A stretch of DNA of 64,000 bases from Nitrososphaerota archaeon (lineage in GTDB: Archaea > Thermoproteota > Nitrososphaeria > Nitrososphaerales > Nitrosopumilaceae). Positions 3,090 through 5,528 of the stretch are shown here, piece after piece (position 1 is the first letter of the stretch; every line of letters begins with the position of its first letter). The notes under the pieces are model-generated. The model saw only the letters and a list, made by a program, of their open reading frames with translations. It was not told the DNA's origin and ran no database searches. Location: positions 1 through 64,000 of the forward strand of contig JAPOVD010000001.1 in assembly GCA_026708305.1 (NCBI GenBank). Direction: 5' to 3'. A program made the position numbers and the translations under genes.

Positions 3090-4109
3090 CTATGATCGAA
3101 TAATATTTTCATCATTTATAAAAACTCCTTTTTTACTGATTACATCTCCAATTTTCTTACTTTCTAATTTATGTTTCTTACAAATAAATGTTATTTTCTT
3201 AACTTCTGATTGTGGTGCTACTATACAAAATCCTATACCCATATTGAAAGTTTTATACATTTCATTAATTTTTACATTGCCTTCTTCTTGGATTAATTTC
3301 ATGATTGGTGGTATTTTTGGAAGCTGGTACAAATTAAATCCAATTTCATTTAGTCGTAATAATTTTGTGAATGCACCACCTGTTATATGTGCTAACCCAT
3401 GTATGCCACATTTTCTCAACATTTCTAAAATTGGATTAACATAAATTTCTGTAGGAGCAAGTAATTTGTTACCTAGAATTCCTATATTTTTTATTTTATC
3501 ACGTATAGAATATTTGGACAATAATATTTTTCTAGCTAAAGAATAACCATTAGAATGCAAACCATTACTTGCAATTCCTATTATTGCATCATCTGTTTTG
3601 ATTTTTCTTGTTATAATATCATATTTGATTATTCCCATTACTGTACCAGCTAAATCAAAATTAAAGTTAGTTCCTGATATTAAGTCAGGCATTATTGAAG
3701 TTTCACCTCCTATTATTGATATTTTTGATTTTTTTGCTCCTGTGACTAGACCACTAATAATTTTTTTAAAAATAGTTGTGTTGTTTTTATTTGCTGCTAT
3801 ATAATCTACAAATGATATGGGGATTGCACCTACGCATATTAGATCATTTACATTCATTGCAATGCAATCTATACCGATTGTGTTATACTTATTCATCAAG
3901 CTAGCTACTAGTGTTTTTGTTCCAACGCCATCAGTGTGCAAAGCTAATTTAGAATTATTAATTTTTACAATTCCTGCATAATGATTAAACCCACTTATTA
4001 CTTGTACATTTTTTTGTATTTGATGTGTATGTTTTATATTTTGACCTATTGCAATTTGACTTTTTTTAATATTTTCTATGTTTACACCAACACTCTTATA
4101 ATCTATCAT
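3090..4109 (-). CDS. purM: Phosphoribosylformylglycinamidine cyclo-ligase (AIR synthetase)
   Basis: PurM closes the imidazole ring in de novo purine synthesis, converting FGAM and ATP to AIR. The 339-residue protein has the expected two-domain ATPase fold. Visible signatures are the nucleotide-binding DGVGTK (residues 60-65), a GGETS motif near residue 135, and the C-terminal glycine-rich HITGGAF. The ATG start fits the family N-terminus (DYKSVGVNI). It works in the same pathway as purP near the far end of the window, but the two are not linked. The gene lies upstream of the antiporter on the same strand. Confidence 0.95.
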   Translation of the reverse strand: MIDYKSVGVNIENIKKSQIAIGQNIKHTHQIQKNVQVISGFNHYAGIVKINNSKLALHTDGVGTKTLVASLMNKYNTIGIDCIAMNVNDLICVGAIPISFVDYIAANKNNTTIFKKIISGLVTGAKKSKISIIGGETSIMPDLISGTNFNFDLAGTVMGIIKYDIITRKIKTDDAIIGIASNGLHSNGYSLARKILLSKYSIRDKIKNIGILGNKLLAPTEIYVNPILEMLRKCGIHGLAHITGGAFTKLLRLNEIGFNLYQLPKIPPIMKLIQEEGNVKINEMYKTFNMGIGFCIVAPQSEVKKITFICKKHKLESKKIGDVISKKGVFINDENIIRS

Positions 4110-4172: not shown

Positions 4173-4540
4173 TTATTTGTTAATAAATAGATCTAACATT
4201 ATCATTTCTTTATTTGTTATTGAATAAAGAGAATTTTTTTTATATTGTATTTGGAAATAAAATTATAATCTGCACAAAAATGCAAATAATTCAAAAAAGA
4301 TTTCTTCATTCTAATATTTGATTTTAGGTATAATTCTGAAAATTTCATGGGCTTACTACGTAATTGGTATAGCAATTTTATTAATGATAATGCATTATAA
4401 TAATGCATTCTAGTTTTTACCGTGTCCAAAATTTGGATGTTGTTTTTTATTATAAAGTCATTAAATTTTTCTGCTATTTCTACTGGAACATATGTTAACC
4501 TATTTTTTACTAGTATTGTACGGTATATTACCTTATTAAT
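4173..4540 (-). pseudogene. Damaged winged-helix-like small protein gene (start lost, frameshift in poly-A)
   Basis: The main open frame (stop at 4217) is free of stops back to 4588 but contains no ATG or GTG; its only usual starts are a TTG at 4429 and an internal ATG at 4408. The best N-terminus (NKVIYRTILVKNRLTYVPVE) would begin at an ATT at 4538-4540, one base from ATG. Near the C-terminus an 8-A run (4234-4241, read on the minus strand) is followed by a wrong-frame tail. One extra A, or a -1 slip, joins the protein to SLYSITNKEMIMLDLFINK, ending at 4173, which resembles the end of a winged-helix domain. I do not recognise a named family. It could be a pseudogene, a slippage-expressed gene or a homopolymer error. 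Confidence 0.55.
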
Positions 4541-4583
4541 CTTGTTTTTAATTTGTGAAGTATTATTAATTATGATACTATGA

Positions 4584-5528
4584 TTGAGTTATATGTATCT
4601 AATTTTACACGTGGTTTTAATTACAACTGGAATAATTATGTTGTGCATTGGTGGCAATTGGTTAATTAATGGTGCTATATTCATATCTTATAAACTCAAA
4701 GTTAATAGATTAATAATCGGAATGACCGTAATAGCTATTGGTACTTCCATTCCAGAGTTAGCTGCCAGCCTAGCAGCAATCGGAATTCATGATAGTTTGA
4801 TCTTGGGTAATATAATCGGAAGCAACATAAATAATGTCGGTTTAGTATTGGGAACAACTGTAATTTTATCATTTTTAATAACCAATCTATCTAAACTAAA
4901 AAAACAGTTAATAATAATGATGTTTGTTTCATTAATTTTTCCTTTATTCATAATTGATAATGAGTTATCCAGAAGTGACGGCAGTATATTATTAATTATT
5001 ATGATGATATTTTTTGTTATTACATATCTAGATGCTAAAAAAAACAAAATGCAAGATCAGGATTTAATTACAACTCAAAACCACAATCTAAAATTCGTAT
5101 TACTAATCCCATGTAGTATAGTTTTTTTATATGCTGGTGCATTACTAACAATAGATAATATAGTTATATTTGCAAAGATAATTGGTTTAACAGAACATAT
5201 TGTCGGAATTACTATAGTTGCTATTGGAACATCGCTTCCAGAATTAATCACTTCGTTCTTGTCTGTTAGAAAGAAATATTATGATTTAGGTCTTGGTAAT
5301 ATAATTGGAAGCAATATTTACAATATTTTATTTATACTTGGAGTAACTTCGATCATAATCCCAATTAAAACAACCTCAATAATTTACTATGATTTAATAA
5401 TTATGATAATATTCAGTTGTATTTTAACAATCATGATCATTAAAACAAACAAGCTAACCATGAGAAATGGATTATATCTTGTAATCTTCTACGTATTTTA
5501 TATTATATCTGCATTTTTGATTTATTAA
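4584..5528 (+). CDS. Na+/Ca2+ exchanger of the CaCA family (YrbG/MaX-like)
   Basis: This 314-residue membrane protein has about ten hydrophobic segments arranged as two inverted repeats. Each repeat carries the alpha-motif of the cation/Ca2+ exchangers: GTSIPELAAS (about residue 53) followed by GNIIGSNINN, and GTSLPELITS followed by GNIIGSNIYN. These glutamates and asparagines bind Na+ and Ca2+ in family members of known structure. The frame opens with TTG at 4584; the ATG at 4593 (MYLILHV) is an equally good start. The promoter would lie in the damaged upstream gene region. Likely role is Ca2+ extrusion driven by the Na+ gradient; true ion preference is inferred. Confidence 0.9.
   Translation: MSYMYLILHVVLITTGIIMLCIGGNWLINGAIFISYKLKVNRLIIGMTVIAIGTSIPELAASLAAIGIHDSLILGNIIGSNINNVGLVLGTTVILSFLITNLSKLKKQLIIMMFVSLIFPLFIIDNELSRSDGSILLIIMMIFFVITYLDAKKNKMQDQDLITTQNHNLKFVLLIPCSIVFLYAGALLTIDNIVIFAKIIGLTEHIVGITIVAIGTSLPELITSFLSVRKKYYDLGLGNIIGSNIYNILFILGVTSIIIPIKTTSIIYYDLIIMIIFSCILTIMIIKTNKLTMRNGLYLVIFYVFYIISAFLIY

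Follow-up and report, generated by a model that had tools for sequence, protein, structure and literature searches.

The analyzed window comprises bases 1–64,000 of contig 3 of a Nitrosopumilaceae genome (837 kb in 9 contigs, 95% complete, 29% GC), whose nearest named relatives within the family are Nitrosopumilus, Nitrosarchaeum, and Nitrosotalea. Hereafter, G000 denotes the genome under study, G001 its closest relative, and G002 the third genome of the genus. A small winged-helix gene (minus strand, 4510–4173) sits between purM and a Na/Ca-exchanger gene, 4 kb from the contig end. The downstream neighbor purM (AIR synthase; 3090–4109, minus strand; Pfam AIRS and AIRS_C) and the divergent neighbor, a Na/Ca exchanger family gene (4584–5528, plus strand; Pfam Na_Ca_ex), are both intact and served as controls. 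The same trio is found on one contig in G001, while the contig of G002 stops 80 bases past purM, which places the regulator locus outside the G002 sequence. A bacterial promoter and terminator scan of the locus was uninformative, the host being an archaeon.

The original prediction described an open frame of 123 codons at this position, and the minus strand is indeed free of stop codons from 4588 to 4220. Its estimate that the 53 codons upstream of a TTG would stay open by chance only about 1% of the time is arithmetically right (1.3%), but it lumps 26 promoter codons with 27 coding codons; the promoter codons alone would be open by chance 12% of the time. For the 97 stop-free codons from 4510 to 4220, the chance probability is 0.0003. 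It had also been considered that relatives might lack any protein from this frame. Instead, the translation from residue 26 onward has matches in 31 of 36 same-family genomes, at 37–77% identity, and a profile search aligns window positions 4507–4238 with model positions 2–91 (E = 2.6e-40), the rest aligning piecewise in the next frame. A chance open frame, with no gene at all, would agree with the absent start codon and the AT-rich DNA, but the strength of the profile match, the conserved place beside purM in G001, and the improbably long stop-free stretch make this reading barely conceivable.

The family to which the frame belongs is present in 136 of 151 Nitrosopumilaceae genomes according to the profile search, with essentially all frames intact and protein lengths of mostly 112–126 amino acids. 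In alignment A1, the G000 copy is orthologous to this regulator family over the whole chain, but it has no uninterrupted frame with an ATG start. The first part of the broken gene, assigned by homology and profile (4220–4510, minus strand), covers family residues 1–91, followed by out-of-frame codons up to the stop. The profile search found no second regulator copy in G000.

The assignment as a winged-helix protein is supported by an AlphaFold model of an intact ortholog and by its PDB matches. The model contains three helices (residues 38–52, 57–64, and 69–81), a two-strand wing (85–90 and 93–98), and a C-terminal helix (100–110), as in the winged-helix fold, with a pLDDT of about 90 over residues 41–110; the conserved N-terminal region of about 35 residues is modeled with low confidence. 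Resemblances in the PDB include AspA, Sso10a-2, AF1382, and ArsR-type proteins. The closest structures are archaeal single-domain winged helices, namely AspA (4rs8/5k5q), Sso10a-2 (4hw0), AF1382 (2qvo), and APE_0880a (2pg4), which share the core of helix, helix, recognition helix, wing, and C-terminal helix, with a best rmsd of 1.4–2.8 Å over about 70 residues. Sequence identity to these proteins is however just 15–22%, and the conserved N-terminal region is a further point of difference. No Pfam or NCBIfam family scores above its cut-off for the regulator. The Sso10a chromatin protein family (NF053610) was rejected as an assignment, as it reaches 15.7 bits against a curated cut-off of 60.

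The start codon of the relatives is missing from G000, in agreement with the predicted loss. In 76 of 79 orthologs, the codon that aligns with GTA 4510–4508 encodes Met, and a start comparison of 80 orthologs shows an ATG one codon earlier in the remaining few. At 4507–4508 (minus strand), G000 reads AGTA directly followed by AAAAATAGG, whereas G001 reads AGTA-ATG-AAAAATAGG, leaving a 3-base gap in the alignment. From this alignment, a mutated ATG at GTA 4510–4508 is less likely than the clean loss of an ATG. Two details of the prediction need correction: the frame is not devoid of ATG, which occurs at 4408, 4348, and 4309, and ATT is not the start, as the region upstream of 4510 is a non-coding promoter in relatives, with a TATA-like box and an operator. 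Between 4510 and TTG 4429, the frame contains no ATG, GTG, or TTG. This TTG is the sole in-frame start-like codon ahead of the first remaining in-frame ATG (4408–4406, minus strand), which corresponds to family residue 35 and leaves 63 codons before the stop. Regardless of frame, the earliest ATGs, at 4491 and 4461, encode only the 3-residue peptides MFQ and MTL.

The second lesion is located at a run of eight A (4234–4241, minus strand; a T run on the plus strand), which is one base short of frame and falls at family residues 91–92, in the turn of the wing. The break proposed here, joining the frame to NSLYSITNKEMIMLDLFINK, is confirmed by the homology of both pieces to one continuous protein in relatives. 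The displaced C-terminal piece, NSLYSITNKEMIMLDLFINK up to its stop (4173–4235, minus strand), comprises the second wing strand and the last helix (family residues 93–112); the stop itself lies at 4175–4173 in the neighboring frame, and 13 of 20 residues are identical to G001. As the wing strands flank the break, a product read in frame would be missing the last helix and half of the wing. G001 reads ATAGGTACCAAT at the position of the run, without an A-run, which makes the 8-A run a peculiarity of the G000 lineage. Regulated frameshifting, which the slippery run had brought to mind, finds no support: relatives are single-frame and without the A-run, and no truncated product is conserved. Programmed ribosomal frameshifting was rejected on the same comparison, as neither a conserved slippery site nor both products are seen among relatives.

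We considered whether the frameshift could be an artefact of assembly or sequencing that cost one base of the A run, the gene being intact or nearly so and only its start truly altered. The lesion is a single-base loss within a homopolymer, in a gene close to the contig end whose operators are retained (see below), and G104, another Nitrosopumilaceae genome, shows the same gene broken by one base in a different A run. However, 35 A-runs of 8–12 bases sit inside open reading frames of at least 140 amino acids in the window, which argues against wholesale homopolymer breakage by sequencing error, and both the loss of a whole ATG and the substitutions at D37, T40, G91, and G102 are atypical of such errors. 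We thus regard an error at the run as unlikely, although it deserves to be kept in mind. The break in G104 (L175, G104:C7:126913-127253), located in the MKKSF region of a gene copy in a genome with four intact operator sites, is itself probably assembly noise.

Comparison of the upstream regions revealed a conserved repeat in the promoter of the family. In nearly all of the 80 orthologs, TTAATAAGG is followed by TACSGTA-n3/4-TACSGTA, which reaches the start codon, and direct reading of the relatives' sequences shows an extra, weaker half-site, TAAGGTA, that overlaps the TATA-like box. The half-sites follow one another at 10–11 bp, corresponding to one helical turn. The exact operator pattern occurs about 3–4 times per genome in most genomes, compared with 0–1 times for a reversed control. 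Beyond the regulator's own promoter, 60 non-self sites from 20-odd genomes were inspected, about 55 of which directly precede radA, a 35-residue gene, or small CxxC genes. At radA, identified by NCBIfam PRK04301 and TIGR02236 in a scan of the N-terminal part, the start codon lies at −1 to +3 of the operator site. The 35-residue gene, which encodes a C-x2-C...H-x3-H zinc-finger-like microprotein and is conserved across Nitrosopumilaceae, mostly starts 4–5 bp after the site. At the CxxC gene of about 66 residues, the start is about 31 bp after the site, with a TATA box in between. Loci of this CxxC...C/H protein that carry the operator are L160, L163, L169, L173, L188, L198, L210, L216, and L223; the gene divergent from it in several genomes looks trpE-like.

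The distribution of the site follows that of the regulator gene. In family genomes of 90% completeness or more, the site accompanies the gene in all 91 carriers; five lack the gene, of which four are siteless and the fifth has a lone site beside an unrelated gene, although these five fall into only two genera and hence represent about two independent losses. Three near-complete genomes of the genus g15 (G016, G033, and G072) have neither regulator nor operator sites, an apparent case of clean regulator loss. The 35-residue gene is kept without the site in the regulator-lacking genomes G003 and G024. In 24 genomes of sister families in the order, the operator is absent, and so is the regulator gene, apart from two marginal matches. 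As the targets of the site, the co-occurrence of gene and site, and their losses agree, the winged-helix protein is likely the reader of the TACSGTA site. The placement of the site between TATA box and start codon suggests repression of the regulator gene, radA, and the 35-residue gene, whereas at the CxxC gene, where it precedes the TATA box, the site could serve for activation or to block promoter binding. From these comparisons, the arrangement looks like a compact and apparently undescribed radA regulon across ammonia-oxidizing archaea. The literature searched contained no description of the regulator or the site, which is weak evidence of novelty given its thin coverage of subscription journals.

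In G000, the TATA-like TTAATA of the gene promoter, conserved in relatives according to the comparison of 80 orthologs, lies at 4534–4539 (minus strand), and a pattern search with one mismatch located two surviving half-sites, TAAGGTA-ATA-TACCGTA, at 4519–4535 (minus strand). The start-side half-site, TACSGTA in relatives, has decayed to TACTAGTA (4508–4515, minus strand), as it has in G001, so that two of three half-sites are kept. The radA operator is perfect (TACCGTA-TGG-TACGGTA, C2:8568-8584, L155:4069-4085), one base before the start, and is also present in G001 and G002. The 35-residue gene (C5:139609-139734, L183), which begins MIKCEYCEKGFLDT, has a one-mismatch operator just upstream, as in G001; the CxxC gene was not found in this genus. 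From the perfect radA site and the one-mismatch site at the 35-residue gene it follows that the regulator was active until recently or still is. Since the radA site remains perfect, the loss of the regulator in G000 is recent or incomplete.

Two lesions in one small gene had been taken as a sign of decay, and this is still the best reading: both are supported by orthologs, G000 carries private changes, and the sister copy in G001 is intact. Measured against intact orthologs, the start loss and the frameshift are disabling lesions, as expected for a pseudogene. The substitutions D37Y, T40A, and G102E are private to G000 and affect residues invariant in 79 of 79 orthologs, and the loss of the wing glycine G91 is likewise private. 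With M1 and A33T added to D37Y, T40A, and G102E, G000 has five private changes at conserved residues; G001 has two, V31I and H77R, whose positions are conserved a little less strictly. The excess, 5 versus 2, is small. The control genes deviate about equally in the two genomes, with G000:G001 ratios of 8:10 for purM and 19:16 for the exchanger. Points against decay include the stop-free first 97 codons, the retained operators of radA and the 35-residue gene, and the third-position bias of the differences between G000 and G001 (17, 7, and 30 at codon positions 1, 2, and 3). A GY94 codon model, used for the suggested synonymous/nonsynonymous check, was saturated on the G000 branch and rejected neither constraint nor neutrality.

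Such a long open frame and its third-position bias, together with the retained operators of radA and the 35-residue gene, could also indicate a functional gene, in which initiation at a non-AUG codon (or at TTG 4429 or ATG 4408) and slippage of polymerase or ribosome on the A run would partly restore the product. Slippage rescue of poly-A frameshifts is reported in PMC3017870 for the AT-rich insect endosymbionts Buchnera and Blochmannia (citing Tamas 2008 and Wernegreen 2010); those genes resemble the present one in their AT-rich reduced genome, one-base A-run indel, and otherwise open frame. Unlike them, the G000 gene is also start-less, and its run is conserved neither between species nor within the genus. 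The two obstacles are independent, and slippage on the A run would restore no start codon. Judging by the conserved TATA position, the mRNA is expected from about 4510, where the first AUGs open frames of three residues, and starts at 4429 or 4408 would drop 27–34 conserved residues. With the private changes at invariant residues added to this, we consider a rescued, functional gene improbable.

On balance, a conserved Nitrosopumilaceae regulator, winged-helix and repressor-like, has probably been broken recently in G000. In relatives, this protein would bind TACSGTA half-sites in pairs, spaced by about one helical turn. The predicted binding sites lie between the TATA box and the start codon of its own gene, radA, and the 35-residue gene; at the CxxC gene, the site precedes the TATA box. 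The regulator would thereby hold down radA and itself until a signal releases them. In G000, with the start lost and one base missing in the 8-A run of the wing, ordinary translation would yield no full-length protein, and the simplest account is the recent loss of a regulator in a shrinking genome.

LexA-type SOS control in bacteria relies on an autoregulated one-component repressor with a small regulon. The proposed system resembles it in having operators at its own promoter and at a recombinase gene (recA or radA), placed to block transcription. It differs in that the regulator is an archaeal winged helix without the LexA protease domain, and DNA damage would be a hypothetical signal here. 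More tentatively, and with rather less conviction than for the broken copy itself, the family could be a dedicated radA regulator, a counterpart of SOS control built on an unrelated protein and two zinc microproteins, which G000 is losing. If so, G000 would be left with an unregulated radA. Autoregulated winged-helix regulators with a small regulon are already known; control of radA would be the surprising part, if confirmed. This matters for the question of how archaea regulate DNA repair. Ammonia-oxidizing archaea are abundant but hard to manipulate, and a candidate operator on radA, the regulator gene, and two microprotein genes makes binding and expression readily testable. G000 itself offers a natural experiment, in which the regulator is apparently going and the radA site is intact.

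Elsewhere in the window, a Pfam scan of ten small open reading frames showed lysS, at the contig edge, to be the only split gene. This class I lysyl-tRNA synthetase frame (10–231) meets a stop at base 10, where the contig has only just begun, and its truncation is likely a contig-edge artefact.
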